Assembly (NCBI RefSeq): GCF_000153485.2
Contig: NC_018721.1
Coordinates: 3,968,001-4,032,000 of the forward strand
Direction: 5' to 3'
Length of the DNA stretch: 64,000 nt
Source of the DNA: Psychroflexus torquis ATCC 700755
GTDB taxonomy: Bacteria; Bacteroidota; Bacteroidia; Flavobacteriales; Flavobacteriaceae
In this document: one piece after another, positions 290-38,499 of the stretch
Position numbering within the stretch: the stretch's first letter is position 1
Layout of the letters: each line of letters starts with the position of its first letter
Position numbers and translations under genes: made by a program
The notes under the pieces: generated by a model
Told to the model about the DNA's origin: nothing
The model's input: only the letters and a program-made list of their open reading frames with translations
Databases searched by the model: none

Positions 290-2674
290 TTACTCTGTTT
301 TTAAACTTTTTATCGGGTTGGCAATGGCGGCTTTTATCGCTTGAAAACTTACTGTTAACATGGCAATGCCTAAAGCCAGAATGCCTGCTGTTAAAAATAC
401 TGTCCAACTAATTTCAATGCGGTAGGCAAAGTCTCGCAACCAACTCTTCATAAGATATAATGCCAATGGAAAACTGATGACCAATGCTACCAAAACGAGT
501 TTGATAAAGTCTAGCGATAATAACTGAACAATTCCAGCTACACTTGCTCCAAACACTTTTCGGATTCCAATTTCTTTGTTGCGTTGTTCAGACATATATG
601 CAGCTAAACCAAATAATCCTAAACAAGCGACAAGTATTGCCAATATGGAAAAAAGTAAACCTACGTTTGCTGTGCGCTGTTCCTTTTCATAAAGTAATTC
701 TAGATTCTTATCTAAGAAAGTATATTTGAATGCTGTATTTGGTGCAAGCGTTTTAAACGTATTTTCAAATCTTGAAATGGTCTCCGTTAAAATTTCATTT
801 TCAAACCGAACTAATAAATACGATTTTGGCTCACGTTGTGCATTATGAAACGCATACGCTCCAATAGGACTGTGCAATGATGCAAAATTAAAATCGTCTA
901 CAACCCCACATATATATGCATTATTACCAAGTTGCATAGCCACCTTTTCACCTATGGCCTCCTCGGGTGATAGACCTAAGAAATCCACGGTGGTTTTATT
1001 GACAAGCACTTCAACTAAAGTATCTCCTTGCTGTTTAATTTTAGGCAATAACTGACCCGATACTAAGTTGAGTTGCAAAACATCTGCAATATTTTGTTCA
1101 GCTCTGTTGGTTTGTATACCCATGCTTTGTTCTGTACTACGCTTATATATACTTCTTCCACTAACCCCAAGTCCTGGATAGCCTTGAGATCTTGTAACAG
1201 CCGAAACGTTTGGTAATTGTTCATAGGCGTTTACTAAAGCTCTACCTGACCCTTCGTTGCGAATTCCAGATGTTGAAATAGCAATGATATTTTCTGGATT
1301 ATAGCCCAAGCTTATATTCTGAATAAATTCTAATTGTTGATGTATCACGATCACACCAATAATTAAAACCACAGAAGCAGAAAACTGAACAACAACCAAG
1401 CCTTTTCTAATCACACTTGCTATGCCGCCCTTATTTGAAGTTGGTTTTATAACTTCTTTTGGTGAAAAACGCGATAAGTATAAGGCAGGATAGGAGCCAG
1501 AAAATAAAGTAGTGACTAGCCAAATCAATACCAAAAACCCCAATATTTTAATTGTAAACAAAGAGGAGATCGCTAAATGTTTCCCTGCTAATTCGTTAAA
1601 AATAGGTAAGGTTATCACAGCGAAAAGTCCACCTAAGACCATTGCAATGGCTGTAATTAAACCTGTTTCTATATAAAACCGAATAATTATATCTTTTACA
1701 GACGCCCCCAGTGTTTTGTTAATTCCAACATCTGTCGCTCTTTTTTGAGAACGTGCTGTTATTAAATTCATGTAATTGATGCAGGCAATGAGTAGGATTA
1801 GAAGCGCTAAAGCAGTAAGATTACGAATTTGATTAATGTCTCCATAATTAGTTATATAACTATCTGAATAATTCGAAGAATACAAATGAATACGCTCTAA
1901 GGGTTGGAGTGAAAAAGTGTACCAAAGGGCTTCTTTTTCTACATTTTTATTTAAAATATCCTGAATTTTAAGTTCAACATCTCTAATTACAGGAGTTGCT
2001 GAATCGAACATCACAAAGGTTTCAAAACTCGCATTATTCCAAGACGGATTCTTTGCAAAGTTTTGCATCATAAAAGGGGCGATCGCATTAAAATTTAATG
2101 AACTGTTATCAGAGAAATCTTTAAAGATACCCTTAACCTCAAACGAAGTTGTATTGTCAATAGTTAGTGTTTTTCCTAATGGATTTTCATCACCAAAATA
2201 CCGTTTAGCCGTGCTTTTTGAAAGCAAAATAGTATTGGGATTGTTCAGGTTTTCTGATCCCGTTCCCTTAAGAATTTCCACATTAAATATATCTAGAATA
2301 GAGGCATCAGACCAGAATAACTTATCTTCTATAAACACATCATTATCCGTTTTAATGGAGGCTGATTCTCCAAAGCCGTGATGAAAAAATCGTCCAGATT
2401 CAACAATAGTCGGAATAGTTGCTTTAAGCTCTGGAGCTAAGGCTGACGGTACATTTGCCCAAGTCTCCAAATCATCTTCTGTGGTATTAAGAAGCACACG
2501 ATAAATATGGTCTTTGTTAGCATACATATTATCAAAACTACGCTCCTGTAAAATGAATAAAAACAGCACCAAAGTTGAAGCTAAACCAATAGATAAACCC
2601 ACTATATTCACTATTGAAAACAACCGATTGGTTTTCAAATTCCGCCAAGCAATTTTTATATAACTGCGTATCAT
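290..2674 (-). CDS. MacB/FtsX-type ABC permease, 794 aa (array member 1)
   Basis: This is an inner-membrane permease of the MacB/FtsX superfamily, in which extracytoplasmic domains move in response to ATP hydrolysis by a partner ATPase. The layout is two MacB-like halves in one chain: TM1 at ~20-43, a periplasmic core, TM2-4 at ~285-306, 337-357 and 376-400, then TM5 at ~423-446, a second core, and TM6-8 at ~671-693, 722-742 and 757-777. The FtsX cytoplasmic motif appears as VGINKTLGAS in half 1 (the usual Arg is Asn) and IGIRKVFGAS in half 2. The C-terminus NPIKSLKTE is the array's hallmark. No ATPase domain is fused. It lies 90 bp downstream of the next permease and has no promoter of its own that I can see. 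The substrate is unknown. Confidence 0.9.
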   Translation of the reverse strand: MIRSYIKIAWRNLKTNRLFSIVNIVGLSIGLASTLVLFLFILQERSFDNMYANKDHIYRVLLNTTEDDLETWANVPSALAPELKATIPTIVESGRFFHHGFGESASIKTDNDVFIEDKLFWSDASILDIFNVEILKGTGSENLNNPNTILLSKSTAKRYFGDENPLGKTLTIDNTTSFEVKGIFKDFSDNSSLNFNAIAPFMMQNFAKNPSWNNASFETFVMFDSATPVIRDVELKIQDILNKNVEKEALWYTFSLQPLERIHLYSSNYSDSYITNYGDINQIRNLTALALLILLIACINYMNLITARSQKRATDVGINKTLGASVKDIIIRFYIETGLITAIAMVLGGLFAVITLPIFNELAGKHLAISSLFTIKILGFLVLIWLVTTLFSGSYPALYLSRFSPKEVIKPTSNKGGIASVIRKGLVVVQFSASVVLIIGVIVIHQQLEFIQNISLGYNPENIIAISTSGIRNEGSGRALVNAYEQLPNVSAVTRSQGYPGLGVSGRSIYKRSTEQSMGIQTNRAEQNIADVLQLNLVSGQLLPKIKQQGDTLVEVLVNKTTVDFLGLSPEEAIGEKVAMQLGNNAYICGVVDDFNFASLHSPIGAYAFHNAQREPKSYLLVRFENEILTETISRFENTFKTLAPNTAFKYTFLDKNLELLYEKEQRTANVGLLFSILAILVACLGLFGLAAYMSEQRNKEIGIRKVFGASVAGIVQLLSLDFIKLVLVALVISFPLALYLMKSWLRDFAYRIEISWTVFLTAGILALGIAMLTVSFQAIKAAIANPIKSLKTE

Positions 2675-2764
2675 AATAAATGTTTTTTATGCTGAATTTA
2701 TTTTAATATCTTTTCATTAGTATTTCTATTTAATTTTTTCGCTCCCCTTTTAGAGTTATGGGAT

Positions 2765-5119
2765 TCATTCTGTTTTTAAACTATCTACTGGATTAGCCAA
2801 GGCTGCTTTTATAGCTTGAAAACTCACAGTTAATAAAGCGATCAAAATAGCTATGACTCCAGCCACAACAAAAATCCACCAGTCGATTTCTATGCGATAC
2901 GCATAATCTTGTAACCAATTATCCATTCCATACCAAGCCATAGGAATAGCTATTAAAATTGAAATACCTACAAGCTTTAAAAAGTCTTTGGACAATAATT
3001 TCACTAAGCCTGAAACACTTGCACCCAAAACTTTTCGAATTCCAATTTCTTTACTGCGCTGTTCGGCTGTGTAAGCTGCCAAACCAAAAAGACCTAAGCA
3101 AGAGATGAGTATGGCTAATAAAGCAAAGAGCTGCGAGAGTTTACCAATAAGCTGTTCACTTTTAAATTTAGCATTGAATGTGTCGTCTACAAAGGTGTAT
3201 TCAAATGGATAGGCTGGATTATGCTTTTTCAGCACAGCTTCAACTTTAGATAGCAAGGCATTAGTGGTTATTTCAGGGTTCATTTTTAAATACATAAAAC
3301 TGGCTTCCCCATGATAATTAAAAAATAACACAGGGTCACTTTGCCCGTACATGTCCTCATATAAATAATCTTTCACAACACCAATAACGGTATACGTATC
3401 CTCCCATCTTATTACTTTCTTTCCGATCGCACTACCATCGCCCATTAGTTTAGCGAAGGATTCAGTAATTAAAACGCTGGTGCTATCTTTTGCTCTATTT
3501 TCACTAAAACCATGACCTTCGGCCAATTCAATTCCTGCGGTTTCTAAAAAATCTGAACTGATATATCTAAAGGAAATCAAAACATCTTCTGTATTTGTGC
3601 CTCCCATCCACTCTAATCCTGAACCGTTATTGCCTCCATCTAAAACTCCTGAGTTATTTAAACCGATACTTGTAACAGCCCCAGTATTAATTAAATCTTG
3701 TTTTATGACTGAAAATTCCTCAATCATAGTCCCATTGACTTTTAATGAAATTAATTGGTCTTTATCAAAACCCAAATCCCTATTCTTTACATGCTGAATC
3801 TGTTGATACACTAAAATAGTACAGATGATAAAAACAATGGAAATCGTAAACTGCCCAACCACAAGGCCCTTTCTAATAAATGTGGCAGAACCATGAGTGG
3901 CTTTTAAACCTTTTAGAACCTCAACAGGTTTAAATGCCGATAAATAGAATGCAGGATATAATCCAGCAAAGATTCCACAAAATAGGGTAACACCCAATAG
4001 AAATATAATATGTGAAGGTTTTGCAAGCCCTAACAACAAATTTTTCTCAACAAGTAAATTAAACTGAGGTAATAAAACAAACAACACTAGTATACTGACA
4101 AGTGTTGCTATAAAAGCAAGCACCAAAGCTTCAGAAATAAATTGGATGATCAATCGAGAACGACCAGAGCCCATCGCTTTTCTCACACCAACTTCATTAG
4201 CACGTTTCTCACTCCGCGCCGTAGATAAATTCATAAAATTTATACAGGCGATAAGTAATATTATTAAAGCGATAAAGGAAAATAAACGCACATAAGTAAT
4301 GCGTCCATCAACCTGTTTACCATTTTCAAAATTATCGCGTAGGTGCCAGTCTTTTATGGAATGTAAAAATGCTTTTGAATTACTATCATCTGTTTTTTTC
4401 TCAATTAAACTTCGGACTTGTGCATCTACAGCTGCAAAATCTGCCTCTGGAGATAACTCCAAAAAAGTATCTGCAAAGAAACTACCATATTCTGTCATCC
4501 AGTCTTGACCATTACTATAACGTTGAAAAGGGGCAATCCAATTAAAAGGAAAAGTGACATTTTTAGGAAGATTCTCAATAACACCAGTGATCAAATAATT
4601 ATCAGTATTATTAACTTTTAAAACTTCCCCAAGTGCTTTCACATTTTTACCAAAAAGCTGTTCTGCTGTTTTCTTAGTAATTACTATAGCTTCTGGATTT
4701 TTAAATGCCGTTTTCGCATTTCCTTCAATAAATGACAGACTAAATATGTTTATAAAATCTTCATCCACATAACGTCCAGAACTATTGATTGCATTGTCGT
4801 CAACAGCAAACAGAAAGTCTCTGTGCTTGGTTCTTGCCGCTCTGATCACTCCAGGAATTTCCGTTTTCATCGCTTCTGCTAATGGTCCTGGAGTCGAATT
4901 AAACGTCCTCCATTCACCATCATATTCCTGATGTGTTGGCACATAATAAACTTGATCTTGCTTTGCGAAATCTGAATTAAAACTCACCTCATCTTCCACC
5001 CAAAGAAAGATGAAACTCGCACAAGTCATACCAATGGCTAATCCAAAAATATTTAGAAAGCTGTAGCCTTTATTTTTCAATAAAGTTCGGAAGGCTATTT
5101 TGATATAATTTAAGATCAT
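2765..5119 (-). CDS. MacB/FtsX-type ABC permease, 784 aa (array member 2)
   Basis: It has the double-half permease architecture of the array. TM1 follows MILNYIKIAFRTLLKNKGYS, the half-1 FtsX motif is VGVRKAMGSGRSRL, TM5 is in FIRKGLVVGQFTISIVFIIC, the half-2 motif is IGIRKVLGASVSGL and the tail is NPVDSLKTE. The periplasmic core carries the WHLRDNFENGKQ segment, also found in members 3 and 11, which groups these three as a subfamily. It is a close duplicate of the next gene (5475-7835), including ~350 bp of upstream DNA. It has its own upstream signature: a sigma-54-like box at 5187-5204 and paired dyads at 5252-5297. It probably heads a unit with the 290-2674 gene. Substrate unknown. Confidence 0.9.
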   Translation of the reverse strand: MILNYIKIAFRTLLKNKGYSFLNIFGLAIGMTCASFIFLWVEDEVSFNSDFAKQDQVYYVPTHQEYDGEWRTFNSTPGPLAEAMKTEIPGVIRAARTKHRDFLFAVDDNAINSSGRYVDEDFINIFSLSFIEGNAKTAFKNPEAIVITKKTAEQLFGKNVKALGEVLKVNNTDNYLITGVIENLPKNVTFPFNWIAPFQRYSNGQDWMTEYGSFFADTFLELSPEADFAAVDAQVRSLIEKKTDDSNSKAFLHSIKDWHLRDNFENGKQVDGRITYVRLFSFIALIILLIACINFMNLSTARSEKRANEVGVRKAMGSGRSRLIIQFISEALVLAFIATLVSILVLFVLLPQFNLLVEKNLLLGLAKPSHIIFLLGVTLFCGIFAGLYPAFYLSAFKPVEVLKGLKATHGSATFIRKGLVVGQFTISIVFIICTILVYQQIQHVKNRDLGFDKDQLISLKVNGTMIEEFSVIKQDLINTGAVTSIGLNNSGVLDGGNNGSGLEWMGGTNTEDVLISFRYISSDFLETAGIELAEGHGFSENRAKDSTSVLITESFAKLMGDGSAIGKKVIRWEDTYTVIGVVKDYLYEDMYGQSDPVLFFNYHGEASFMYLKMNPEITTNALLSKVEAVLKKHNPAYPFEYTFVDDTFNAKFKSEQLIGKLSQLFALLAILISCLGLFGLAAYTAEQRSKEIGIRKVLGASVSGLVKLLSKDFLKLVGISILIAIPMAWYGMDNWLQDYAYRIEIDWWIFVVAGVIAILIALLTVSFQAIKAALANPVDSLKTE

Positions 5120-5186: not shown

Positions 5187-5204
5187 GGTGAAGATGATGC
5201 CAAA
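5187..5204 (-). promoter_or_regulatory. Putative sigma-54-like -24/-12 promoter box
   Basis: On the minus strand this reads TTTGGCATCATCTTCACC. The TTGGCA matches the sigma-54 -24 element. The -12 half is TTCAC instead of the consensus TTGC, so it fits the GG-N10-(G/A)C shape imperfectly. The same box occurs at 7903, 13334 and 38529, each about 50-90 bp upstream of a minus-strand start. Here it lies ~68 bp before the ATG at 5119. A sigma-54 activator gene is present in the locus at 38706. Confidence 0.5.
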
Positions 5205-5474: not shown

Positions 5475-7835
5475 TCACTCTGTTCTTAAACTGTCTACTG
5501 GATTTGCCAAGGCTGCTTTAATGGCTTGAAAACTCACGGTAAGCATGGCGATTAAAAGGGCAACACCACCCGAAATAATAAAAATCCACAAATTGATTTC
5601 TATGCGATAGGCATAATCTTGAAGCCAATTTTCCATGGCATACCAAGCTATTGGCACGGCAATTAAAATGGAAATACCAACAAGCCTTAAAAAGTCTTTG
5701 GACAATAATTTCACTAAGCCTGAAACACTTGCACCCAAAACTTTTCGAATTCCAATTTCTTTACTGCGCCTTTCCACTGTGTAAGCTGCTAAACCAAAAA
5801 GGCCTAAACATGAAATGAGAATGGCTAATAAGGCGAAGAGTTGCGAAAGCTTACTGATAAGCTGTTCGTTTTTAAACCTAGCGTCAAATATGTTATCTAC
5901 AAAATTATAATCAAAAGGAAATACTGGATTGTGCTTTTTCATAACTGCTTTTATTTTAGAAATAGCTAGAGCCGCAGAAATTTCATCTTCAATTTTAACA
6001 TATAAAAAATTCCCATAATTGGCATTATTAAAAAATAGTACTGGGTCACTCGTTCCATACATGTCTCCATATAGATAATTCTTAACGACTCCTTTAACTT
6101 GATATGCCTTTTCATCGATAGTCACTTTTTTTCCTAATGCGCTACCTTTTCCCATTAAGTCAGCAAATGATTGTGTGATTAAAACATTAGTACTGTCCTG
6201 TATCATGATAGTACTAAAATTTCTTCCTTCAACAATCTCCATTCCTATTGTTTGTATGAATTCAGAACTCACATGCCTCAAACTAATCAAAACATCCTCT
6301 GTAGGTTCAGCACTATCCCATTTCAGCCCAGTACGGTTGCTACCTCCAGAAAGCACTACAGAATTACATAAAGCTGTATTTTTCACAACTCCAGTATTTA
6401 TTAAATCTTTCTTGATGACTGAAAATTTTTGAATAACCTTATCATTCGCTCTCATAACGAGTAATTGGTTTTTATCATAGCCTAGATCTCTATTTTTAAC
6501 ATGCTGAATTTGCTGATATACCAAAATAGTAGCTATAATAAATACAATAGACATGGTAAACTGACCAACGACAAGACCTTTTCTAATAAATGTTGCTGAA
6601 CCTTGAGTGACTTTTAGACCTTTTAAGACTTCTACAGGTTTAAATGCCGATAAATAAAATGCAGGGTAAAGTCCTGCAAAAATGCCACAAACCAAGGTGA
6701 TTCCGAGTAGGAATAGAATATGCATAGGTTTTGCAAGTCCTAGTGCCAAATCTTTTTCAATAAGTAAGTTAAACTCTGGCAACAAAATAAATAGAAACAC
6801 AATGCTAATTGAGGTTGCTATAAAGGCAAGAAGTAAAGCTTCTGATATAAATTGAATGATTAATCTAGATCGACCAGAACCCATCGCTTTTCTAACTCCA
6901 ATTTCATTAGCGCGTTTTTCGCTACGTGCTGTGGATAGATTCATAAAGTTAATGCACGCGATGAGTAATATTATAATAGCTATTATTGAAAATAAACGGA
7001 CATAAGCAATACGGCCACCAACTACTTTTCCATCTTCAAATTTTGATCTTAGGTGCCAATCTTTCATGGTGTGCAAAAAAGCATAAGTGCCTGTAGGACT
7101 ATCACCATTCTTTTTTAAAAGAATTTGTCGGACTTTACTATCTGCGATTTCAAAATTTGCCTCGGGAGACAATTCTACAAACGTATCAGCAAAATTATTG
7201 TCATATCCCAATATATCATTTTGTCTTTTCGCATATCTTTCAAAAGGGGCTAACCAATTAAATCCAAAAGTGACATTAGCAGGAAGGTTCTCTATTACAC
7301 CTGTCACCATATAGTCATCTCCATTACTCATCCTTATGGTCTTTCCAAGAACTTTTGTATTTTCCCCATAAAGTAGCACCACCATATCTTCCGTAAGCAC
7401 TATGGCTTCTTGAGATTTAAATGCATCTTTTGCATTGCCTTCAATAAAAGCTAAACTAAAAATTTCAAAAATATCTTCATCAGCATACTTACCTATACTA
7501 CCTATATGATCATCTTGTATAGGAAATACCAAATTAGCTCCAATTGTTACTATTGATCTAATTACCTCAGGAATCTCATCTTTAAGTGCCTTAGCCAAGG
7601 GCCCTGGTGTTGAATAAAAGGTACGCCATTCACCACTGAAATTATGATTTGTTGGCACATAATATACCTGGTCTTGTTTTTTAAAAGACGTATTAAAACT
7701 CACCTCATCTTCCACCCAAAGAAAGATTAAACTTGCACAGGTAATACCAATGGCTAATCCAAAAATATTCAGAAAGCTGTAGGCTTTATTTTTCAATAAA
7801 GTTCTAGATGCTATTTTGATATAATTTAAGATCAT
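5475..7835 (-). CDS. MacB/FtsX-type ABC permease, 786 aa (array member 3)
   Basis: This is a twin of the 2765-5119 permease. The N-terminus (MILNYIKIASRTLLKNKAYS), TM blocks, FtsX motifs (IGVRKAMGSGRSRL and IGIRKVLGASVSGL) and tail NPVDSLRTE line up almost residue for residue. The two periplasmic cores differ more, for example NTGVVKNTALCNSVVLSGGS here against NTGAVTSIGLNNSGVLDGGN there. Divergence concentrated in the extracytoplasmic domains suggests changing substrate or partner specificity. The upstream 355 bp duplicate the promoter region of its twin, including the box at 7903-7920 and the dyads at 7968-8013. It is separated from the 2765-5119 gene by 355 bp with no other gene. Confidence 0.9.
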   Translation of the reverse strand: MILNYIKIASRTLLKNKAYSFLNIFGLAIGITCASLIFLWVEDEVSFNTSFKKQDQVYYVPTNHNFSGEWRTFYSTPGPLAKALKDEIPEVIRSIVTIGANLVFPIQDDHIGSIGKYADEDIFEIFSLAFIEGNAKDAFKSQEAIVLTEDMVVLLYGENTKVLGKTIRMSNGDDYMVTGVIENLPANVTFGFNWLAPFERYAKRQNDILGYDNNFADTFVELSPEANFEIADSKVRQILLKKNGDSPTGTYAFLHTMKDWHLRSKFEDGKVVGGRIAYVRLFSIIAIIILLIACINFMNLSTARSEKRANEIGVRKAMGSGRSRLIIQFISEALLLAFIATSISIVFLFILLPEFNLLIEKDLALGLAKPMHILFLLGITLVCGIFAGLYPAFYLSAFKPVEVLKGLKVTQGSATFIRKGLVVGQFTMSIVFIIATILVYQQIQHVKNRDLGYDKNQLLVMRANDKVIQKFSVIKKDLINTGVVKNTALCNSVVLSGGSNRTGLKWDSAEPTEDVLISLRHVSSEFIQTIGMEIVEGRNFSTIMIQDSTNVLITQSFADLMGKGSALGKKVTIDEKAYQVKGVVKNYLYGDMYGTSDPVLFFNNANYGNFLYVKIEDEISAALAISKIKAVMKKHNPVFPFDYNFVDNIFDARFKNEQLISKLSQLFALLAILISCLGLFGLAAYTVERRSKEIGIRKVLGASVSGLVKLLSKDFLRLVGISILIAVPIAWYAMENWLQDYAYRIEINLWIFIISGGVALLIAMLTVSFQAIKAALANPVDSLRTE

Positions 7836-7902
7836 AATTGTTCTCTTTAGATGGAATAAGCGTATTCGTTTATATTTTATTCCATACTCATACTATTTAT
7901 AT

Positions 7903-7920
7903 AGTGAAGATGATGCCAAA
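7903..7920 (-). promoter_or_regulatory. Putative sigma-54-like -24/-12 promoter box
   Basis: The minus strand reads TTTGGCATCATCTTCACT, the same box as at 5187 with one terminal change. It is ~68 bp upstream of the ATG at 7835. Its conservation partly reflects the duplication of this whole region, so it is not an independent observation from the 5187 copy. Confidence 0.45.
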
Positions 7921-7967
7921 GGTTTAAATAATTATATATCAATACTTTAAAACTATATTTAACAAAT

Positions 7968-8191: not shown

Positions 8192-10624
8192 TTATTCTGT
8201 TTTTAAACTAACTACTGGATTAGCCATAGCGGCTCTAATAGCCTGGAAACTCAATGTTATTAAAGCTATTACTAAGGCTACTAATCCAGTAACTACAAAA
8301 ACCCCCCAGTGAAGATCTATTCTAAAAGCAAATTCCTGTAGCCACTTATTCATAAACCACCATGCTATAGGTGTTGCTATGACAAAGGCAAGCATCACTA
8401 GTTTTACAAAATCCGTAGATAACATTTTAACAATATTAGTTACTGAAGCTCCTAGTACTTTGCGTATGCCAATTTCTTTTGTGCGCTGTTCAGCAATGTA
8501 AGTTGCCAATCCAAACAAGCCAAGACAAGCAATAATTATTGCCAACAATGCAAAAACAAGAGCAACGGTCCCAACACGCCTCTCTTGGCGATACATATTT
8601 TCAAAAGCTTCATCTAAGAATTCATATTTAAATGGCATTCCTGGAGCAGCAGCCTTGTATTTATTCTCAATGGTAGACAGCAAACCATTAACATCAGCTG
8701 TATTAAATCTATAGGCAGTTTCCCAACTATTATTTCCTAATTTTAAACTTAATCCTCCAACATTTTCACGTAGAGATGCAAAATTAAAATTTTCAACCAC
8801 ACCAATAATCGTATAGACTTGAAGGTCACTATTCTTCTTTTCTCTATATATTTTTTTTCCAATAGGGTTTTGAAAACCAGCTAATTTAACAGCCGTCTCA
8901 TTTAATATTATAGCTGTTGAATCTGAACCAAAATCTCGAGAGAAATTCCGACCTTCACTCATTTTCATCCCTATTGTTTCCACATAAGCATAATCTACGT
9001 CCCAATACTGCATGTTAAATCCGTTAGATTCTGTCATGACAGTTTCTGTAGAAAAAATTGTGCTTGAACGCGAAGAACTAGATACTGGTAAAAATCCTGC
9101 AAACGAAGCTGATTTCACTGCCGTCAGTTGTTCAATCTCATTTTTCAGAGATTGTCTGGTTTCACGTGATAATCCCGAATTGTTGACCACTAACACTTGT
9201 TCTTTATTGAACCCTAAATTTGCAGATTGAATGTGGTTTATTTGTTTATAAATGACTGTTGTACCAACAATTAAAATGATGGATGTTGCAAATTGAAACA
9301 CCACTAAAAAATTACGTAGGGTATTTCTTTTATGCCCTGTTGATAATGTCCCTTTTAATACTTTAATGGGCTTAAATGAAGACAAGAAGAATGCTGGATA
9401 TGCACCTGCTAATCCACCAACTATAAATGGAAGCAAAAAGATGAATATTATAAATTTTGGGCTTAATAAAGAAGACATCAACATTTCTTTTCCTGAAATG
9501 CCATTAAACCATCCTAAAGAAAGCCATACAAACAACAAACCCACAAAAAGCGCTAAAAAGGCAATTAAGGTTGACTCGGTTAAGAACTGTCCAATTAGAG
9601 CTTTCTTTTTAGAACCTAAAACTTTACGAATACCTACTTCTTTTGCTCTACCTGAAGATTTTGCAGTCGTAAGATTCATGAAATTGATGCAAGCAATTAA
9701 TAATATAAATAATGCAGCAGCAGAAAAAATATAAACATATTGGATATTACCATTTGCACTTAATTCGACTCCTCTTGAAGAATGTAAATGTATATCTGTG
9801 AGTGGCATTAAAGCATATTCTATTTTATTTCCATTTGCCTCAAACTCCTCCATACTTTTAATTTGCATGAATTCCGCTGCTTGTGGCAGCAAGTACTTCT
9901 CAATAACTTCTTTAAAGTTTTTATTGAATATTTTATAATCTGTTCCTTCTTTTAAGAGCACATACGTATGAAAGTTAGCACTTAAATAATTACCAAAATT
10001 ATAATCGACATTGGCCATGGAGAAGAAAAAATCAAAATTGAAATGTGAATTTTTTGGTAGGTCTTCTATAACAGCGGTTACTTTATATAATGTTTTGTTA
10101 TCATCACCGGTCTCTAGCATTTCACCCATAGCAAGTTCTGCGCTCCCAAAATAACGTTTCGCTGCAATTTCTGTTATAACTACGGTGTTGGGTGCCTTAA
10201 GTGCCGTTCTCGTATCGCCTATTATTGGCGGTAATGTAAAGACATTAAACAAAGTAGAATCGGCATGTACTACTTTTGATTCGTTAATATATTCATTTCC
10301 ATTTTTAATTAACTTAGATCCTTGAGAAGCATAAAGTCTCACATAGTCTTCAACTTCTGGATAATCGCTCTTTAGCGTTTCTCCCATAGGATCTGAACTC
10401 ACAGCCATACTCATTTCTGCACCTGCAAAAATGAAATCCGAATTTACTCGGTAAATGCGATCTGCCTTCTCATGATAGCGATCATAACTTAATTCATCTA
10501 TCACGAACATGGAAATCATAATAAAGCAACCAATCCCTAAGGATAAGCCAATAATATTAATGGCTGTAAAACCTTTATTCTTTAAAAGGTTTCTCCATGC
10601 TATTTTAAAATAATTCTTAATCAT
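8192..10624 (-). CDS. MacB/FtsX-type ABC permease, 810 aa (array member 4)
   Basis: It has the eight-TM double-half architecture. The N-terminus MIKNYFKIAWRNLLKNKGFT leads into TM1. The ELSYDRYHEKADRIYRV segment after TM1 and the block LLIACINFMNLTTAKSSGRA with VGIRKVLGSKKKAL place it close to the IS-interrupted permease at 18679-23299. The second half has the IGIRKVLGASVTNI motif and the tail NPVVSLKTE. The gene follows an N-terminal stub of another permease (10633-10791), which lies between it and the 10803-13244 gene. It has no upstream copy of the sigma-54-like box, so it is probably transcribed from the promoter before 13244. Substrate unknown. Confidence 0.9.
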   Translation of the reverse strand: MIKNYFKIAWRNLLKNKGFTAINIIGLSLGIGCFIMISMFVIDELSYDRYHEKADRIYRVNSDFIFAGAEMSMAVSSDPMGETLKSDYPEVEDYVRLYASQGSKLIKNGNEYINESKVVHADSTLFNVFTLPPIIGDTRTALKAPNTVVITEIAAKRYFGSAELAMGEMLETGDDNKTLYKVTAVIEDLPKNSHFNFDFFFSMANVDYNFGNYLSANFHTYVLLKEGTDYKIFNKNFKEVIEKYLLPQAAEFMQIKSMEEFEANGNKIEYALMPLTDIHLHSSRGVELSANGNIQYVYIFSAAALFILLIACINFMNLTTAKSSGRAKEVGIRKVLGSKKKALIGQFLTESTLIAFLALFVGLLFVWLSLGWFNGISGKEMLMSSLLSPKFIIFIFLLPFIVGGLAGAYPAFFLSSFKPIKVLKGTLSTGHKRNTLRNFLVVFQFATSIILIVGTTVIYKQINHIQSANLGFNKEQVLVVNNSGLSRETRQSLKNEIEQLTAVKSASFAGFLPVSSSSRSSTIFSTETVMTESNGFNMQYWDVDYAYVETIGMKMSEGRNFSRDFGSDSTAIILNETAVKLAGFQNPIGKKIYREKKNSDLQVYTIIGVVENFNFASLRENVGGLSLKLGNNSWETAYRFNTADVNGLLSTIENKYKAAAPGMPFKYEFLDEAFENMYRQERRVGTVALVFALLAIIIACLGLFGLATYIAEQRTKEIGIRKVLGASVTNIVKMLSTDFVKLVMLAFVIATPIAWWFMNKWLQEFAFRIDLHWGVFVVTGLVALVIALITLSFQAIRAAMANPVVSLKTE

Positions 10625-10632
10625 GATTTCTA

Positions 10633-10791
10633 TTTTTTAAAAGTTGAATTAAAACTCACCTCATCTTCAAACTAAAGAAAAATTAAGCTAGCGCAAGTAA
10701 TGTCTTTGGCTAAGCCAAATATGTTTAAGAAGTTATAGCCTTTATGCTTTAATAAAGTCCTGAATGCTCTTTTTATATAATTACGTATCAT
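10633..10791 (-). pseudogene. N-terminal stub of a lost FtsX permease gene
   Basis: From an ATG at 10791 the minus strand translates as MIRNYIKRAFRTLLKHKGYN, then FLNIFGLAKDITCASLIFL, a stop, then FEDEVSFNSTFKK. This is clearly the first ~53 residues of a permease like those at 2765 and 5475 (TM1 and the VEDEVSFN block). A TAG replaces the conserved Trp, and the coding sequence then ends abruptly just before the start of the 8192-10624 gene. The rest of the gene was evidently lost by deletion, which joined its first 50 codons to the upstream region of its neighbour. It shows that the array once held at least one more permease. Confidence 0.8.
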
Positions 10792-10802
10792 AATAGTGTT
10801 AC

Positions 10803-13333: not shown

Positions 13334-13351
13334 GGTGAAGATAATGCCAAA
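13334..13351 (-). promoter_or_regulatory. Putative sigma-54-like -24/-12 promoter box
   Basis: The minus strand reads TTTGGCATTATCTTCACC, one base different from the 5187 copy inside the spacer. It lies ~90 bp before the ATG at 13244. The surrounding DNA is otherwise diverged from the 5187 and 7903 regions, so conservation of the box is more informative here. Confidence 0.5.
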
Positions 13352-30433: not shown

Positions 30434-32833
30434 TTATTCTGTTCGTAATGATTCTACAGGATTAGAGGTCGCTGCTTTAATAGCCTGAAAACTTACAGTA
30501 ATTAAAGTGATGATTAATGCGCCAAAACAGGCAATCGCAAACACATCCCAACCGACAGGCGTTCTATAGTTGAACTTTTGCAACCACTCTTTCATAATAT
30601 AGTAGGCCAATGGAGACGCAATCAATAAGGCAATAACGACAAGGGTGATGAAATCTTTGGAGAGTAATAACCACAACTGGCTGATAGAGGCTCCTAATAC
30701 TTTTCTAACACCGATCTCTTTTGTTCTTTGCTCAGCAACGAAGGATGCCAATCCGAAAAGACCTAGACAACTAATAAAAATAGCTAAAGCTGTAAATACG
30801 CTTGCTAAACTGGCGATACGTTCTTCAGATTTAAATTTCGCGCCATATTCTTCATCTACAAACTGATAATCGAACGGGGTGTTTGGGAAATTTCTTTTAA
30901 AGACCCCTTCAATAAGTGTTAAGTTTTCGCTAGTACTTTTTTCTGGATTCAGTCTAAGGTTGTAAAAAGCTACATTATCATAACTATCAAAAATATACAA
31001 AGCTTGTTTTACAGGATTGTAAGGCGATTGTATGATCATATCTTCCACAACGCCAACAATTTTCAAAGGTGGATTTGGATTTTCGATATCTGAATCTCTG
31101 ATATACTTTCCGATAGGATCTATAAGTCCCATATATTTTACTGCGGTTTCATTAATCAAAACTGCATTTGAATCTGAAGCGAATTCTCTCGAAAATCCAC
31201 GTCCTTGTACAACCTTTAAACCCAATGTTTCTGTAAATTCATAAGACACCCTAGTATGTGCAAAATCTTCTTGAAAACCTGCGGATTTACCATCCCAAGT
31301 GAAGCCAGACTGATTGGACCAGACATTTGTCATTGGCCCGCTCGTACCAGCCATCTCTGCAGCACCACCTGAAGCAATAAATTGTTCGCGCAACAGATCT
31401 TGTTTTCCAATAAATTCACTACTCATTACGGGAATTTGAATTAAGCCTTCCTTATCATAACCAACGGGTCTATCCTTACTGAATTGAATCTGATTCATCA
31501 CCACAAGCGTTCCAATAATTAAAGCAACAGAAACGGTAAACTGAGTCACAACTAAAACTTTTCGAGGTAACGCTGAATAGCGTCCTGCTTTAAATGTGCC
31601 TTTTAAAACTTCGACTGGGTTGAAAGCCGATAAGTATAAGGCCGGGTAACTACCTGCTAAAATTGACGTGATAATTACAAAGAGTAATGAAATTAACCAG
31701 AACTGACTATTTGCCCACGGAAAAATAATCGATTTACTAGCCAGATGATTAAATCCATTTAAGAATAATAATACCAGGCTAAGTGCACCAATAAACGATA
31801 TAAAAACAATTAAAAAGGATTCACTTAGAAACTGTAAAACAAGCTGACTACGTTGAGAACCAATCGATTTTCTGATGCCAACTTCAGTTGCTCGTTTTTC
31901 TGAACGTGCTGTACTTAGATTCACAAAGTTGATACACGCTAATAGCAAAATAAATAAACCTATAACTCCAAATAACCAGACGTTTTCTATGCGCCCTCCA
32001 CTTTGAATTCCATTTTCAAAATCACTTCTTAAATGCCACTTTTCCATTGGAAATAAAAATAATTGTGGATTATATTGAACCAACTCAGGATCTGCATTTT
32101 TCTTAACATCACTAATTTTTGAGGTTACAACATCCATAGATGTGTTTTCATTAATTTGAACAAAAAGTTGAAATGAATTATTTCCCCAATTATCCTTGGA
32201 CCATTTTAACCATTCTTGTGTGGTTACATACTGTTTCCAAGGGATGATGTACTTCATTTCGCTAAATGAATTATTTGCTGGAATATCTTTGTAAATGGCA
32301 GTGACCATTAAGTCGTCTTTGTTGTTAATTTTTATGACTTTTCCTAGTGCAGTTTCATTTCCAAATAAAGTACTGGCTGCAGATTCAGCTAGCATAATTG
32401 AATTTTTCTCTTTAAGACCATTTTTAAGACCTGCAATAATATCTAAACCCAGCATGTCTGGCGCAGCTTTTTGCATGGCATTTCCAGTTTTGTAAATGTT
32501 GGTTTCTCCAAATTTTAGGTACTGTGATTGCTCCCAAGATGCCATAACAATATGCTTAAAATTAGCCTTGTAATTTTCACGTAGGGCAAATTCTAAGGGT
32601 CTTGGAATTGAAGGACCAGTGCTAATATTACCATTAGTCGTTTGACTTTGATAAATCTGGGCAATACTGTCCTTATTTTTATAATGGTTATTAAAATTAA
32701 GCTCATCTGCAATCCATAGGCCAATTAAGATGGTCGCTGCCATGCCTATGGCTAAACCAGAAATATTGATAAAGGAATACACCTTATTTTTAATAAGATT
32801 TCTAAAGGCTATTTTGAAATAATTTTTAAACAT
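30434..32833 (-). CDS. MacB/FtsX-type ABC permease, 799 aa (array member 11)
   Basis: This is an intact array member. MFKNYFKIAFRNLIKNKVYS precedes TM1. The first core has the WHLRSDFENGIQSGGRIE segment that also marks members 2 and 3, and the half-1 motif VGIRKSIGSQRSQLVLQF resembles theirs. TM5 is in PRKVLVVTQFTVSVALIIGT. The half-2 motif is IGVRKVLGASISQLWLLL and the tail NPVESLRTE. Members 2 and 3 at the far end of the array may descend from a gene like this one. It is downstream of the 33098 gene across a 264-bp spacer. No separate promoter signature was seen. Substrate unknown. Confidence 0.9.
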   Translation of the reverse strand: MFKNYFKIAFRNLIKNKVYSFINISGLAIGMAATILIGLWIADELNFNNHYKNKDSIAQIYQSQTTNGNISTGPSIPRPLEFALRENYKANFKHIVMASWEQSQYLKFGETNIYKTGNAMQKAAPDMLGLDIIAGLKNGLKEKNSIMLAESAASTLFGNETALGKVIKINNKDDLMVTAIYKDIPANNSFSEMKYIIPWKQYVTTQEWLKWSKDNWGNNSFQLFVQINENTSMDVVTSKISDVKKNADPELVQYNPQLFLFPMEKWHLRSDFENGIQSGGRIENVWLFGVIGLFILLLACINFVNLSTARSEKRATEVGIRKSIGSQRSQLVLQFLSESFLIVFISFIGALSLVLLFLNGFNHLASKSIIFPWANSQFWLISLLFVIITSILAGSYPALYLSAFNPVEVLKGTFKAGRYSALPRKVLVVTQFTVSVALIIGTLVVMNQIQFSKDRPVGYDKEGLIQIPVMSSEFIGKQDLLREQFIASGGAAEMAGTSGPMTNVWSNQSGFTWDGKSAGFQEDFAHTRVSYEFTETLGLKVVQGRGFSREFASDSNAVLINETAVKYMGLIDPIGKYIRDSDIENPNPPLKIVGVVEDMIIQSPYNPVKQALYIFDSYDNVAFYNLRLNPEKSTSENLTLIEGVFKRNFPNTPFDYQFVDEEYGAKFKSEERIASLASVFTALAIFISCLGLFGLASFVAEQRTKEIGVRKVLGASISQLWLLLSKDFITLVVIALLIASPLAYYIMKEWLQKFNYRTPVGWDVFAIACFGALIITLITVSFQAIKAATSNPVESLRTE

Positions 32834-33097: not shown

Positions 33098-35482
33098 CTA
33101 CTCAATCTTCAAACTCTCCGTCGGATTCGCTATCGCTGATTTCACAGCTTGGAGGCCTACCGTAAAGGATGTAATTAGCAAGGCCATTAATCCACCTATT
33201 GCGAACATCCACCATTGAATAGTAATGCTATGAGCAAAACCAGATAACCACGCGTTCATTACATACCAAGCTATAGGAATAGCTAAAATGGCCGCTATGC
33301 CTACAAGAAGGATGTAATCTTTAGAAAGTAAAATGATAATCTTTAACACTCCAGAACCCAAAACTTTTCTGATGCCTATTTCTTTCACACGTCTTTTGGC
33401 CATAAAAGAAATCAATCCGAACATGCCTAAACACGAAATAAAGATGGTTAAGAGTGCTACTACATTTACGGTTTTCAACATGCCTTCAATTAAACGGTAT
33501 TGCGCACTGACTTTATCAGTTAAAAATTCTTGTTCATAGGTTCTTCGAGATTCAATAGTGCCAAATCCATTTACGATAAGTTCTTCTACTGTCTTTTCAT
33601 GTCCCTTCTCTACCTTTACGGAAAGAAAGCGAGGGTAGGATAAATCCTCTTTATCACGATAAAAATGGATAAGGGGTTCTACTGCATTTTGCATATCTTG
33701 AAAGTGAAAATCTTCCATAACTCCCACAATAGGATAACTAGATGAGGTGTTTCCTTTTGCTTTCAATTGTTTGCCTTCAATAGCATCCCATCCTAAAGCT
33801 TTCATTGCTGTTCTATTTATGAGTACTGGGTAATCATCAGCTTGATCTAGGTTTTTATCAAAATCTCGTCCCATTACCAATGGAATTTCGAAGGTCTGGA
33901 GGTAGTCTTGATCTGATCTTGCGTAACGCATTCTAACTTCATTATCTGTTTTAGGATCATACAGTTGCGTGTAATTAAAATTATAGTCGGAGGGAATTCC
34001 ATCACTTACTGAAACATTTTTCACATAAGAATTCGCTTCGAGTTTGTCTAATAAGGCATTAAAATTTGACGAAGCTGTTTCTTCATTTTTGAACTCTAGA
34101 TTGATGTTACCCACTAGAATATTCTCCTTGCTAAAACCCAAAGGAGCATTTTTCATAAAACCAATTTGACTATTTAAGATAACAGCGACACAGATAAATA
34201 GAATCGCAATACTAAATTGCAGTACTATAAATGAGTTACGAACAAGAAAATTACTTTTAATAGCGTTTAGTTTACCCTTTATTCCTGTTGAAATAGGTAT
34301 GGAGATAAACCGTAAAGTGGGAAGTATACCTACTATCAAAGTTACTAGAAGCCCCAATGCCACAACAAATAAAATCACGGGATAATCTTTTTCTACTGAA
34401 AAGGAAATCTTTCCAAAGTCAGCACCATAAACTGAATTTAATTTTGGTAATAAAAAGCCTAGAAAAAGGAGCGCTGAAATGCAGATAGATGCAAAGACCA
34501 ATATGCCATTCTCCATGCAAAACTGAATGATAATATGTTTTTTACTACCCCCTAATATTTTTCGTACCGCTATATCTTTAGTCCGGCGATACATTGTTGA
34601 TGCATTTAGATTGAGCAGGTTGATCAGTGCAATGAGTAATATAAAAACCGATGCGGCTATACACCCATTAATAATGGTTTCTACCACAGGAATACTTTCT
34701 ATTCTAATGCCTGAAAAAGGCAATGCTTTTAAGGCTGCAACTATACTTGGATCGGTATAGTTTTTTTGAACCAATTCTTCCACACGGCTTTCAAAGGCTT
34801 CAATATCTGTATTTGGTCTTAATTTTAAATAATTCAAGCTAAAGCTATCACTCCAATTCGAACGTCCTTTAAAACTGGGATAACTTTCTAAAAGTTGGGC
34901 AGGCATCACCACACCCATCCGAAAAGCAGAATACGGACTAATCGGTTCTAAAACTCCGGTAATTGTGAGGTTTAAGCTGTCATTTGCTTTTAGGATTTCT
35001 CCAACAGGATTCTTTTTTCCAAATATTTTCTCACTCACTTTATGGGTAAGGACAATAGAATACTTTTTATCTAAAGCCGTTTCGCGATTACCATGTTTTA
35101 AGGCTAAAGAGAAAACATCAAAAAATGCTGGCTCCACATAATCAGTTTGTTCTTGAAATTCCAATTCGCCATATTCTAGCCAAGGATTATTCCAGCCTTG
35201 TAAATGCGAACCTGCGACTACTTCTGGGGAAGATTTAATGATTTCATTTAGGAGTAGATAGGGCGTTTCTGTGTACGAATCTCCACCTGTAGTATATGTT
35301 TTTAAATAAAAGATATTCTCTTGATCCTCAATATTAGCATCCGCATCATAATACGCATATACAGAAAAAATAAGAGTCAATACACTACCAATCCCTATAC
35401 TTAAGCCTAACAGGTTAAGTGTAGAAAGCAATTTGTTTTTCCACAGATTTCGAAAAGATATTTTAAGGTGATTTTTAAGCAT
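33098..35482 (-). CDS. MacB/FtsX-type ABC permease, 794 aa (array member 12, promoter-proximal)
   Basis: This is the permease nearest the ATPase gene and one of the most divergent in sequence. It has TM1 in LGLSIGIGSVLTLIFSVYAY. The half-1 motif is IAVRKILGGSKKHIIIQF, with Ala for the usual Gly before RK. TM5 is in VRNSFIVLQFSIAILFICVA, the half-2 motif is VKEIGIRKVLGSGVLKIIIL and the tail NPTESLKIE. The half-2 connector reads MAKRRVKEIG instead of AEQRTKEIG. It is separated from the ATPase gene by 354 bp containing two inverted repeats. If any permease is the ancestral partner of the ATPase, position makes this a candidate, but that is inference. Substrate unknown. Confidence 0.88.
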   Translation of the reverse strand: MLKNHLKISFRNLWKNKLLSTLNLLGLSIGIGSVLTLIFSVYAYYDADANIEDQENIFYLKTYTTGGDSYTETPYLLLNEIIKSSPEVVAGSHLQGWNNPWLEYGELEFQEQTDYVEPAFFDVFSLALKHGNRETALDKKYSIVLTHKVSEKIFGKKNPVGEILKANDSLNLTITGVLEPISPYSAFRMGVVMPAQLLESYPSFKGRSNWSDSFSLNYLKLRPNTDIEAFESRVEELVQKNYTDPSIVAALKALPFSGIRIESIPVVETIINGCIAASVFILLIALINLLNLNASTMYRRTKDIAVRKILGGSKKHIIIQFCMENGILVFASICISALLFLGFLLPKLNSVYGADFGKISFSVEKDYPVILFVVALGLLVTLIVGILPTLRFISIPISTGIKGKLNAIKSNFLVRNSFIVLQFSIAILFICVAVILNSQIGFMKNAPLGFSKENILVGNINLEFKNEETASSNFNALLDKLEANSYVKNVSVSDGIPSDYNFNYTQLYDPKTDNEVRMRYARSDQDYLQTFEIPLVMGRDFDKNLDQADDYPVLINRTAMKALGWDAIEGKQLKAKGNTSSSYPIVGVMEDFHFQDMQNAVEPLIHFYRDKEDLSYPRFLSVKVEKGHEKTVEELIVNGFGTIESRRTYEQEFLTDKVSAQYRLIEGMLKTVNVVALLTIFISCLGMFGLISFMAKRRVKEIGIRKVLGSGVLKIIILLSKDYILLVGIAAILAIPIAWYVMNAWLSGFAHSITIQWWMFAIGGLMALLITSFTVGLQAVKSAIANPTESLKIE

Positions 35483-35836: not shown

Positions 35837-36514
35837 TTATGCCAAAATATTCTCTGTCACTTTCTGTCCGTCCAGCATTCTAATGATGCGGTGACTGTAT
35901 TTGGCATCGTGTTCACTGTGTGTTACCATAATAATGGTCGTGCCAGCTTCGTTGAGGTCTATCAGTAAGTCCATGACTTCGTTCCCATTGGTGCTATCTA
36001 AGTTACCTGTTGGTTCATCTGCCAAAATTAATTTCGGGTTATTGACTACAGCTCGGGCCACAGCAACACGTTGTTGTTGACCACCAGATAATTGCTGTGG
36101 AAAGTGATTGCGACGGTGCATAATTCCCATTTTTTCTAAAACCGCTTCCACTTGTTTTTTGCGTTCAGCTGTTTTTACACCGGTATAAATCAAGGGCAAT
36201 TCCACATTTTCAAAAACCGTAAGTTCATCGATGAGGTTAAAACTCTGAAAGACAAAACCGATATTGTGCTTTCGTAATTCAGAACGTTTGCGTTCATTGT
36301 AACCGGCTACTTCCACACCATTAAATAAAAAGCTTCCGCTATTGGGATCATCTAATAGTCCAAGAATGTTTAGTAGTGTTGATTTACCGCAACCAGAAGG
36401 TCCCATAATGGCTACAAACTCACCTTCTTTCACTCCAAAAGACAATTTGTTTAGAGCTATTGTTTGCACTTCTTCCGTTTTATAATACTTTTCTAAATCT
36501 TTAATTTGTATCAT
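35837..36514 (-). CDS. Stand-alone ABC transporter ATPase of the LolD/MacB type
   Basis: This 225-aa nucleotide-binding protein powers FtsX-type permeases. Its motifs are Walker A GPSGCGKST at ~38-46, Q-loop FVFQSFNL at ~86-93, signature LSGGQQQR at ~143-150, Walker B LILADEPTGNLD at ~162-173 and switch His in VTHSEHD at ~200. Length and motif spacing match LolD, FtsE and the MacB N-domain. It is the only ATPase gene in the window, yet 13 permease loci follow on the same strand, so one ATPase probably serves several permeases. It follows the HlyD gene across a 734-bp gap containing a microsatellite-like block. No promoter was recognised immediately upstream. Confidence 0.95.
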   Translation of the reverse strand: MIQIKDLEKYYKTEEVQTIALNKLSFGVKEGEFVAIMGPSGCGKSTLLNILGLLDDPNSGSFLFNGVEVAGYNERKRSELRKHNIGFVFQSFNLIDELTVFENVELPLIYTGVKTAERKKQVEAVLEKMGIMHRRNHFPQQLSGGQQQRVAVARAVVNNPKLILADEPTGNLDSTNGNEVMDLLIDLNEAGTTIIMVTHSEHDAKYSHRIIRMLDGQKVTENILA

Positions 36515-37240: not shown

Positions 37241-37248
37241 AAAAAACT

Positions 37249-38499
37249 CTATTTCAAAATCAACTCCTCTGTATCTCCAAAGGAATCATAACTTGAAGTC
37301 ACCACTTTATCTCCAGGATTTAAACCTTCAAGCACCTCATAATATTCTGTATTCTGGCTTCCTAGTCTAATATTAACTTTGTAAGCAGTAGACCCCTCTT
37401 CACTAATTTTAAAAATCCAATTGCCTCCTGTTTTTTGAAAGAATCCGCCTTTAGAAACGAGCAAAGCTTCTTTCTCCGCGCTCAATGCTACCCGAATCTG
37501 TAGATTCTGTCCTCTTCTAATACCTTTTGGTACATCTCCTTCAAACTTCATATCGACCTGAAAACGACCATTGGTAACCTGAGTAAAAACTTTTTTAATG
37601 GTTAACGTGTAGTTCTTATTATTCAATGTGAATGTTCCGGTTTGGCCATTGTAAATTCTAGAGATATAATGTTCATCTATATCCACTCTTACTTTGTATC
37701 CAATGGTTACATCTACTTGTCCAAGCCGAGTGCCTTTAGTTATAGACTGGCCTATTTCTGCATCAAGCGATGTCAACTGACCATCAATAGGAGCACGGAC
37801 CACTAAATCACCTACTTTTTTGCGCATTAATTCTAACGCACTTTGTGTTCTGATATAAGAGTTTTTTGCTTGGTTGTTTTCGACTTGCGTAGAAATTGTA
37901 TCCTCAGATAAAACACGCTTAGCCAGTTTCATACGTTCTTTTTGGTATTCAAAATTATTGTGAGACGATTCGTAATCCATTCTACCAATAGCACCATTAT
38001 CGTATAAACGTTTGTTTAAATTATAGACGCGTTTTGCTTCAATTAAACTGTTTTCTACATCCGTAAATTGATTTTGTCTATTAATGGTGTTTTGACGCGC
38101 TGCATTCTGGGAAATCTGCATTTGCGTTAATAAATTATAAACCGATGTTTCTTGATTGATCAAGCTTAACTCCAAATCGGTATTAGATAATCTTAAGATG
38201 GGTTGCCCTTGTTCTAAAATCGCACCGTCTTCTACAAATTTCTCTTCTACACGTCCACCTTCTAGAGCATCCAAATAAATAGTTGTAATGGGCAAGACAA
38301 TACCATTAACAGGAATGTTTTCTTGAAAAATAGCTTTATTCACTGTATGAATAGAAATCCGTTCTGTCTCTACATTTAATTTGGAACCTCCAGAAGTTTG
38401 AAGAATCACATATAGTATTAAAGCGATGATGGCCAAAACACCACCTATAAGCCCGAGCTTTTGGTTTGAAAATTTTTTCTTTTTAAGAGGTACGTCCAT
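37249..38499 (-). CDS. HlyD/MacA-like membrane-fusion (periplasmic adaptor) protein
   Basis: This 416-aa protein has a short basic N-terminus (MDVPLKKKKFSNQK), one membrane anchor at ~16-34 and a beta-barrel/lipoyl segment around ~60-100. A long helical hairpin spans ~100-215, rich in Gln, Asn and Arg. The second lipoyl half (VVRAPIDGQLTSLDAEIGQS, ~227-246) and a beta-barrel/membrane-proximal domain complete the adaptor fold. Adaptors of this type link an inner-membrane ABC permease to an outer-membrane TolC-like channel, which is not encoded in this window. It is the first gene of the minus-strand unit and carries the sigma-54-like box at 38529-38546 and the dyads at 38597-38634. It diverges from the regulator gene at 38706, a layout that suggests direct control. 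Confidence 0.92.
   Translation of the reverse strand: MDVPLKKKKFSNQKLGLIGGVLAIIALILYVILQTSGGSKLNVETERISIHTVNKAIFQENIPVNGIVLPITTIYLDALEGGRVEEKFVEDGAILEQGQPILRLSNTDLELSLINQETSVYNLLTQMQISQNAARQNTINRQNQFTDVENSLIEAKRVYNLNKRLYDNGAIGRMDYESSHNNFEYQKERMKLAKRVLSEDTISTQVENNQAKNSYIRTQSALELMRKKVGDLVVRAPIDGQLTSLDAEIGQSITKGTRLGQVDVTIGYKVRVDIDEHYISRIYNGQTGTFTLNNKNYTLTIKKVFTQVTNGRFQVDMKFEGDVPKGIRRGQNLQIRVALSAEKEALLVSKGGFFQKTGGNWIFKISEEGSTAYKVNIRLGSQNTEYYEVLEGLNPGDKVVTSSYDSFGDTEELILK

Follow-up and report, generated by a model that had tools for sequence, protein, structure and literature searches.

Architecture of the Permease Array

How can thirteen permease loci be served by one ATPase and one adaptor? This question is raised by a gene array of Psychroflexus torquis ATCC 700755 (Flavobacteriaceae), which lies in a 64-kb window (the whole stretch analysed; NC_018721.1, positions 3,968,001 to 4,032,000) of a 4.32-Mb, single-contig genome. 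The original prediction, made from the letters of the window, held that the permeases are interchangeable and share the ATPase and the adaptor. In our analysis, this central idea of one ATPase (A1) and one adaptor serving interchangeable permeases is well supported by gene content, and we consider it probable that the array encodes a tripartite ATP-binding cassette (ABC) exporter, working like MacAB-TolC or DarBCD, with one permease slot that different members of a repertoire can occupy. The array consists of the following genes (window positions):

37249..38499, minus strand: HlyD/MacA-type adaptor, opening gene of the array (PF13437)
35837..36514, minus strand: ATPase A1, MacB/LolD/DarD type (PF00005; NF038007; motifs)
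33098..35482, minus strand: permease 1 (own_01), intact (open reading frame (ORF), Pfam, paralogue comparison)
30434..32833, minus strand: permease 2 (own_02), intact (ORF, Pfam, paralogue comparison)
27859..30240, minus strand: permease 3 (own_03), intact (ORF, Pfam, paralogue comparison)
25252..27692, minus strand: permease 4, broken by a frame change (two overlapping ORFs matching one permease)
18679..23299, minus strand: permease 5, three pieces split by two transposase genes (paralogue mapping)
16203..18617, minus strand: permease 6 (own_06), intact (ORF, Pfam, paralogue comparison)
13482..15929, minus strand: permease 7 (own_07), intact (68% relative is the sole permease of locus L176)
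10803..13244, minus strand: permease 8 (own_08), intact, own operator/promoter element (paralogue comparison, element alignment)
10625..10802, minus strand: permease stub, N-terminal remnant with stops (alignment)
8192..10624, minus strand: permease 9 (own_09), intact (71–72% relatives are the sole permeases of loci L092 and L175; structure model)
5475..7835, minus strand: permease 10 (own_10), intact, own operator/promoter element (paralogue comparison, element alignment)
2765..5119, minus strand: permease 11 (own_11), intact, own operator/promoter element (paralogue comparison, element alignment)
290..2674, minus strand: permease 12 (own_12), intact (ORF, Pfam, paralogue comparison)

The predicted inventory proved right: there are ten intact permeases, two broken ones and one stub, their extent together with the adaptor (290 to 38499) fits the gene ends, and a single HlyD adaptor is present within the window. 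The intact permeases, predicted at about 800 amino acids on one strand, measure 784–815 amino acids, and all are encoded within positions 290 to 35482 of the minus strand. Genome-wide Pfam scans yielded MacB_PCD and FtsX matches in each of them, and hydropathy analysis gave eight transmembrane (TM) segments in nine and nine in the remaining one. Pairwise identities range from 26 to 70%, permeases 10 and 11 being 70% identical. In the alignment of the ten, the mean pairwise identity is 23 and 24% for periplasmic cores 1 and 2, compared to 49 and 64% for coupling loops A and B and 65% for the C-terminus, so that the expected contrast between conserved loops and divergent cores was indeed observed. 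It is also found between permeases 10 and 11, with cores 58–59% and loops 91–96% identical. The conserved E-I-G-I-R-K motif of the loops had been read as a sign of sharing, which did not hold. EIGIRKALGA and EIGVRRALGA are present in two half-permeases encoded elsewhere in the genome (L002:5860-7101 and 7103-8362), which have their own adjacent ATPase. Thus, the motif marks contact with an ATPase rather than its sharing, and we dropped it as proof of the latter. A structure model was made for permease 9, and Foldseek and VIA searches covered one permease.

Sole Permeases and Permease Turnover Point to Interchangeability

The most telling evidence for interchangeable permeases comes from loci of other genomes that have only one permease. 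In five of these (L092, L175, L176, L096, and L057), A1 is 84–90% and the adaptor 60–72% identical to the P. torquis proteins, and all five lack the second ATPase, A2, that is described below. The permease is a relative of permease 9 in L092 and L175 (71–72%) and of permease 7 in L176 (68%). It belongs to a subfamily without a member in this array in L096 (63% to G075_01), and is a distant one in L057 (45–47% to the permease-9 group). At least three subfamilies, two of them represented in this array, therefore occur as sole permeases beside an 84–90% identical A1. The simplest reading of this gene content is that A1 and the adaptor would accept each of them.

Sequence comparison indicates a much faster turnover of the permeases than of A1. 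A tree was built from 171 permeases, ten from this array and 161 from 24 genomes, with some additional permeases of G076 and G082 left out, and the members of any one array are scattered over the whole of it. The nearest neighbour lies in another genome for 152 permeases and in the same array for 19. Shuffles gave a mean of 8.5 same-array neighbours (range 0–19), and there is thus some local duplication. Permeases of the same array have a median identity of 34%, with 7 of 736 such pairs at 55% or above. Genome pairs with 95–99% identical A1 proteins share on average a fraction of 0.47 of the smaller permease set, and two of the 15 pairs have no permease in common.

The array is recurrent in Bacteroidota, where it has the order HlyD, A1, n permeases, A2, TolC, with a kinase gene and a sigma-54 regulator gene in divergent orientation. 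Across loci, n varies from 1 to at least 22, and from 3 to 22 in 24 named genomes with long stretches. The full order was observed in 19 of these 24 genomes and A2 is present in 22, whereby in the remaining two (G076 and G082) it is located on another contig. Variants include Sphingobacterium and Parapedobacter loci with one or more permeases ahead of A1, and a sister layout with TolC in first place. An adaptor match with an expectation value (E) below 1e-60 was obtained in 11 of 59 other genomes searched as relatives, and the best 80 of 520 relatives carry titles from Flavobacteriaceae, Chitinophagaceae, Sphingobacteriaceae, and others. A1 is 95–97% identical in two Winogradskyella genomes, one Algibacter, G236, and the congener G024, 88–89% identical in P. 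tropicus and G008, and 59–60% identical in three further congeners, while 20 of 26 congeners gave no A1 match at E 1e-70. Lateral transfer of the array seems likely. The congeners G011, G023, and G026 (loci L031, L035, and L037) have a different, one-permease version with a permease of 899–900 amino acids, a 31–32% identical HlyD protein, a 59–60% identical A1, and no A2 within the stretch.

A Second ATPase Accompanies the Larger Arrays

The predicted single ATPase did not stand up, since a second ATPase gene, A2, with 54% identity to A1, lies 0.6 kb off the left edge of the window. The region contains, in this order:

1..227, minus strand: DUF2807 (head GIN) protein, 5' part in the window (L001:12484-13227; PF10988, 106.1 bits)
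genome 3966747-3967421: ATPase A2, beyond the left window edge (PF00005)
genome 3964737-3966167: TolC-type channel (outer-membrane efflux protein), beyond the left window edge (PF02321, 182.2 bits)

With A2 and the channel 0.6–3.3 kb past the edge, the array is flanked by two ATPases and has the complete set of parts of a tripartite exporter. In the tree, the 25 A1 and 24 A2 rows separate into two clades with support of 100/100. Walker A, Walker B, and the H-loop are kept in A2. The D-loop reads NLN in all 23 A2 proteins with letters at this position, in contrast to NLD in 25 of 25 A1 proteins, and the signature is LSGGQQQ[L/I]V in A2 compared to LSGGQQQRV in A1. Among further loci, the A2 pattern of D-loop and signature holds in nine of nine cases; the D-loop search pattern was unmatched in the A1 of L057.

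The occurrence of A2 follows the number of permeases: it is present in 1 of 10 one-permease, 4 of 7 two-permease, 8 of 9 three-permease, and 24 of 24 four-to-eight-permease loci. Of 111 loci, the counts include the 55 that were traceable as far as the end of the array (45 left the fetched DNA and 11 had no A1), and kin among the loci are not independent. In the only A2-positive one-permease locus, L110, the permease has just 256 amino acids. Two large arrays were tallied without A2, namely G079 (n = 9), owing to a gap of more than 6 kb in a stretch that holds 14 permeases and A2, and G082 (n = 13), where A2 is on a separate contig, as in G076. The five one-permease loci most similar to this array belong to genomes in which no A2 orthologue was found, although some are metagenome-assembled genomes and may be incomplete; in three of these genomes the best A2 matches (51–53%) are at the A1 position, and the other two are not among the 72 A2 matches. 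The placement of A2 varies. In L067, it lies with TolC on the opposite side of HlyD (this locus left the fetched DNA), and it is found on another contig with TolC in L157 and with a permease in L158. Match lists had hinted at 38 genomes with A2 and no A1. This was rejected, as an A1 of 64–70% identity was found in 8 of the 16 stretches checked, all eight reaching the array start; the remaining eight were too short to tell.

Together with the altered D-loop, the presence of A2 in larger arrays suggests either that A1 and A2 form pairs whose sites are unequal or that A2 provides a second service, and the statement that one ATPase serves all permeases may thus be incomplete. The strongest alternative is that service is divided, A1 powering one set of permeases and A2 another. 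The near absence of A2 from one-permease loci and its constant presence in those with four to eight would fit this, as would its intact Walker A, Walker B, and H-loop. However, an end lineage bound to A2 was not seen: first and last array positions each require 20 changes on the permease tree, which is hardly clustered given a shuffled mean of 23.7 (minimum 20 and 21), and position-specific permease lineages are therefore unsupported. Moreover, the pair of an own_02-like and an own_09-like permease occurs with A2 in L051 and L178 but without it in G027, although the own_09-like member of G027 is only 43–44% identical. We regard divided service as possible, if distinctly less probable than shared service. 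Of the original idea, the shared ATPase and adaptor with interchangeable permeases is thus upheld by genome comparison and qualified by the existence of two ATPases. ATPases co-evolving with subsets of the permeases had been named as a counter-argument; a further ATPase does exist, and no matching subset was found by array position or in two-permease loci.

The Array Has a Putative Operator/Promoter Module of Its Own

The regulatory genes and predicted elements are the following:

38706..40058, plus strand: sigma-54-activating response regulator (NtrC type), divergent (PF00158, PF00072, PF02954)
40048..41391, plus strand: histidine kinase, divergent (PF02518; hydropathy)
38597..38614, minus strand: predicted operator, 69 bp upstream of the HlyD promoter-like element (alignment, genome search)
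38530..38544, minus strand: promoter-like element TGGCATCATCTTCAC before HlyD, one of four exact genome sites
13335..13349, minus strand: promoter-like element ahead of permease 8; predicted operator 13403-13420
7904..7918, minus strand: promoter-like element ahead of permease 10; predicted operator 7972-7989
5188..5202, minus strand: promoter-like element ahead of permease 11; predicted operator 5256-5273

Searched genome-wide, the element TTGGCAYNATCTTSACYA matched exactly at four sites, which all lie on the coding strand of the array, ahead of HlyD and permeases 8, 10, and 11. Allowing one mismatch added one match at 1.29 Mb, and the reversed-pattern control gave none. The putative operator TGTATCAAAAYCGAACA occurs at the same four places only, with up to one mismatch genome-wide (control: none), and lies 69–70 bp upstream of the element at each. 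Before HlyD, the spacing of 70 bp is kept in six of six near relatives, three of which have an internal element before a relative of permease 11, accompanied by the operator in one of the three. In 17 of 68 loci, a looser form of the element lies 42–86 bp ahead of HlyD, compared to 0.6 expected from shuffles.

A sigma-54 activator gene adjoins the array and RpoN is encoded in the genome. A canonical GG-N10-GC sigma-54 promoter is absent before HlyD in the window and from 45 of 58 intergenic regions before the first gene. Of the 13 regions with GG-N10-GC, only L063 and L076 exceeded 95% of shuffles, and a canonical promoter was rejected. The element keeps GG-N10 but has AC in place of GC and can thus be called sigma-54-like. 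A 2025 survey of predicted sigma-54 regulons lists the permease group COG0577 as enriched in Bacteroidia, among others (PMC12316311).

By hydropathy, the kinase of the array has two TM segments with a loop of about 10 amino acids between them. Of 56 kinase ORFs in the loci, this one included, 46 have at least two TM segments, the first two being 0–11 residues apart. A kinase without a periplasmic sensor domain recalls the Bce-type kinases. The array differs from BceAB-BceS in its sigma-54-type regulator and in the two periplasmic cores of each permease, compared to the one large extracellular domain of BceB. It might be that the array mainly senses, the cores detecting envelope-active compounds and the permeases reporting to the kinase with little or no export. 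The structure of the kinase and the confinement of the operator/promoter module to the array would agree with this, and Bce modules couple kinases without a periplasmic sensor to an ABC transporter (PMC10314905). However, the locus keeps an adaptor and a TolC-type channel, which are needed for export and not for sensing, and a sensing array is hence unlikely.

A Probable Exporter With Exchangeable Permeases

In the exporter that we favour, each permease would be a fused pseudo-dimer of two TM halves and two MacB-like periplasmic cores. An A1 dimer would attach to the conserved loops on its cytoplasmic side, the HlyD adaptor would bind each permease and complete the conduit with the TolC-type channel, and the variable cores would select the cargo. 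In MacAB-TolC, ATP drives the pushing of cargo; here, ATP binding would likewise power a motion like that of MacB, by which the cargo is forced into the conduit. The regulator would act on the operator/promoter module, and upon induction the whole set of adaptor, permeases, channel, and both ATPases would be made, with additional starts ahead of permeases 8, 10, and 11. The kinase probably reads transporter activity, as proposed for BceS. A2 may be a partner ATPase that becomes advantageous under competition among several permeases, perhaps by forming A1/A2 pairs whose sites are unequal, and permeases may be gained and lost as cassettes by recombination. A more comprehensive version would have a fixed chassis of adaptor, A1, channel, kinase, and regulator combined with up to 22 or more exchangeable permeases. 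Some of these would have their own promoters and all would signal to the kinase by transporter flux and thereby increase expression of the array, A2 with its D-loop Asn would pair with A1 to allot energy, and the whole would form a horizontally traded repertoire for defence or secretion. This version is tentative and, taken in all its parts, rather doubtful.

Several observations weigh against the exporter reading. Two or three permeases occur without A2 in the fetched stretches of G027, G053, G059, and G049, so that A2 is not obligatory. The P. torquis genome encodes other MacB-like ATPases (A2 and two more, 46–54% identical to A1), which could serve some of the permeases. Since ATPases are usually more conserved than permeases, the slow evolution of A1 alone proves little. 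With respect to regulation, the promoter-like element departs from the canonical -24/-12 site and was detected in its strict form in the nearest relatives only, the operator is missing at two of the three internal element copies of relatives, and a single TM segment was scored in 10 of the 56 kinase ORFs. Finally, naming envelope-active peptides or similar amphiphiles as substrates is a guess.

Both the parts and the overall architecture have known counterparts (MacAB-TolC, DarBCD, YbbAP, and ADOP-like permeases). With MacAB-TolC, the array has in common the MacB periplasmic core and FtsX domain of the permeases, the MacA-like adaptor, and the TolC-type channel. MacB is a single chain comprising the ATPase and one half of the permease, whereas here the ATPases are on separate ORFs and two permease halves are fused; A1 and the permeases match different parts of the MacB model NF007826. 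The DarBCD system (NF038008/NF038010/NF038007), which has one permease and one ATPase, is similar in its fused permease of about 780 amino acids, HlyD-type adaptor, and stand-alone ATPase. Its models are the best NCBIfam models of A1, A2, and the adaptor, but the curated cut-offs are missed (in bits, A1 295.7 and A2 239.8 of 375 with NF038007, adaptor 169.7 of 450 with NF038010). Nine of the ten permeases score 117.8–154 against 700 for the DarB type, and the one at 16203-18617 falls short of E 1e-30. E. coli YbbAP, for which we know of no adaptor or channel operon, shares the fused double permease fold and the separate ATPase, but NF041854 gave 36.7 bits against 999 in one of four permeases scanned (E up to 1). 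The model of the acidobacterial duplicated orphan permease (ADOP; TIGR03434), so named because no ATPase adjoins, matches all ten intact permeases over nearly their full length, but with 246.5–341.4 bits against a cut-off of 622.3; moreover, the array permeases are not orphans, having ATPases, adaptor, and channel alongside. PMC11573002 reports 28 and 33 RAST labels "acidobacterial duplicated orphan permease" in two Dyadobacter genomes. Shared ATPases are already known for importers, MsmX and MsmK each being a single ATPase for several transporters (PMC7658222), but these are type I importers and not a tripartite exporter.

Our searches of open-licence PubMed Central (PMC) papers yielded no description of a motor and adaptor shared by many permeases in a tripartite exporter, nor of a many-permease, two-ATPase array with its own operator. 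If the exporter reading is true, expansions of "FtsX-like permeases" in Bacteroidota could be understood as repertoires built on a fixed chassis, and the permease cores would amount to a catalogue of modules for substrate binding. The division of one ATPase pool could then be tested directly by means of the A1/A2 rule.

Broken Permeases, Transposases, and Repeats

Three transposase genes are inserted in the array:

19637..20668, minus strand: IS1595-type transposase, within permease 5 (PF12762)
21629..22663, plus strand: DDE_3 (IS630-like) transposase, within permease 5 (PF13358)
23436..25031, minus strand: DDE_Tnp_1-type transposase, between permeases 4 and 5 (PF13586, PF05598)

These genes, the two broken permeases and the stub, the 70% identity of permeases 10 and 11, and the excess of same-array neighbours (19 of 171) over the shuffled mean would be expected if tandem duplication had multiplied permeases that are now mostly redundant or dead, but such a decaying amplification is very improbable, as ten genes are intact, 152 of the 171 permeases are closer to one in another genome, and only 7 of 736 within-array pairs reach 55% identity around a median of 34%.

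Permease 4 consists of the ORFs 25252-27000 and 26979-27692, one gene split by a frame change. The latter adjoins an exact 23-bp tandem duplication of 2.1 copies (27008-27055), which might reflect decay, a slippage-type switch, or an assembly fault. The three pieces of permease 5 (22688-23299, 20701-21453, and 18679-19536) all have their best match in the paralogue at 8192-10624 and map to its residues 1-202, 266-488, and 541-810. The stub at 10625-10802 corresponds to about the first 40 permease codons and resembles the permeases starting at 2765 and 5475 (31 of 39 residues each). Outside the array, another IS630-like transposase gene (46836-47870) has Pfam scores identical to those of the one at 21629-22663.

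Between A1 and HlyD (36615-37230), about 600 bp of degenerate tandem repeats with units of 21–154 bp were found, including CTCACCACTCA and TATTCAATATTC. Comparable short repeats are present between some of the permeases.

Related Genes Elsewhere in the Genome

Left of the array, L001:1587-5596 (genome 3956587-3960596) encodes an ATPase (46% to A1) and an FtsX permease of 841 amino acids, beside an ORF that is GDSL-hydrolase-like by eye. The region L002:5166-10974 (genome 1.915-1.921 Mb), with an ATPase, two half-permeases of about 415 amino acids, and adaptor-like and channel-like ORFs, looks by position and sequence like a conventional exporter, in contrast to the array. L003:3980-4639 encodes an ATPase with 41% identity to A1, LolD-like by eye and without an adjoining permease, and single half-permeases are located at 0.705 Mb and 1.188 Mb. 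Within the window, 52621-55176 encodes a CotH-domain protein with lamin-tail and Por_Secre_tail domains.

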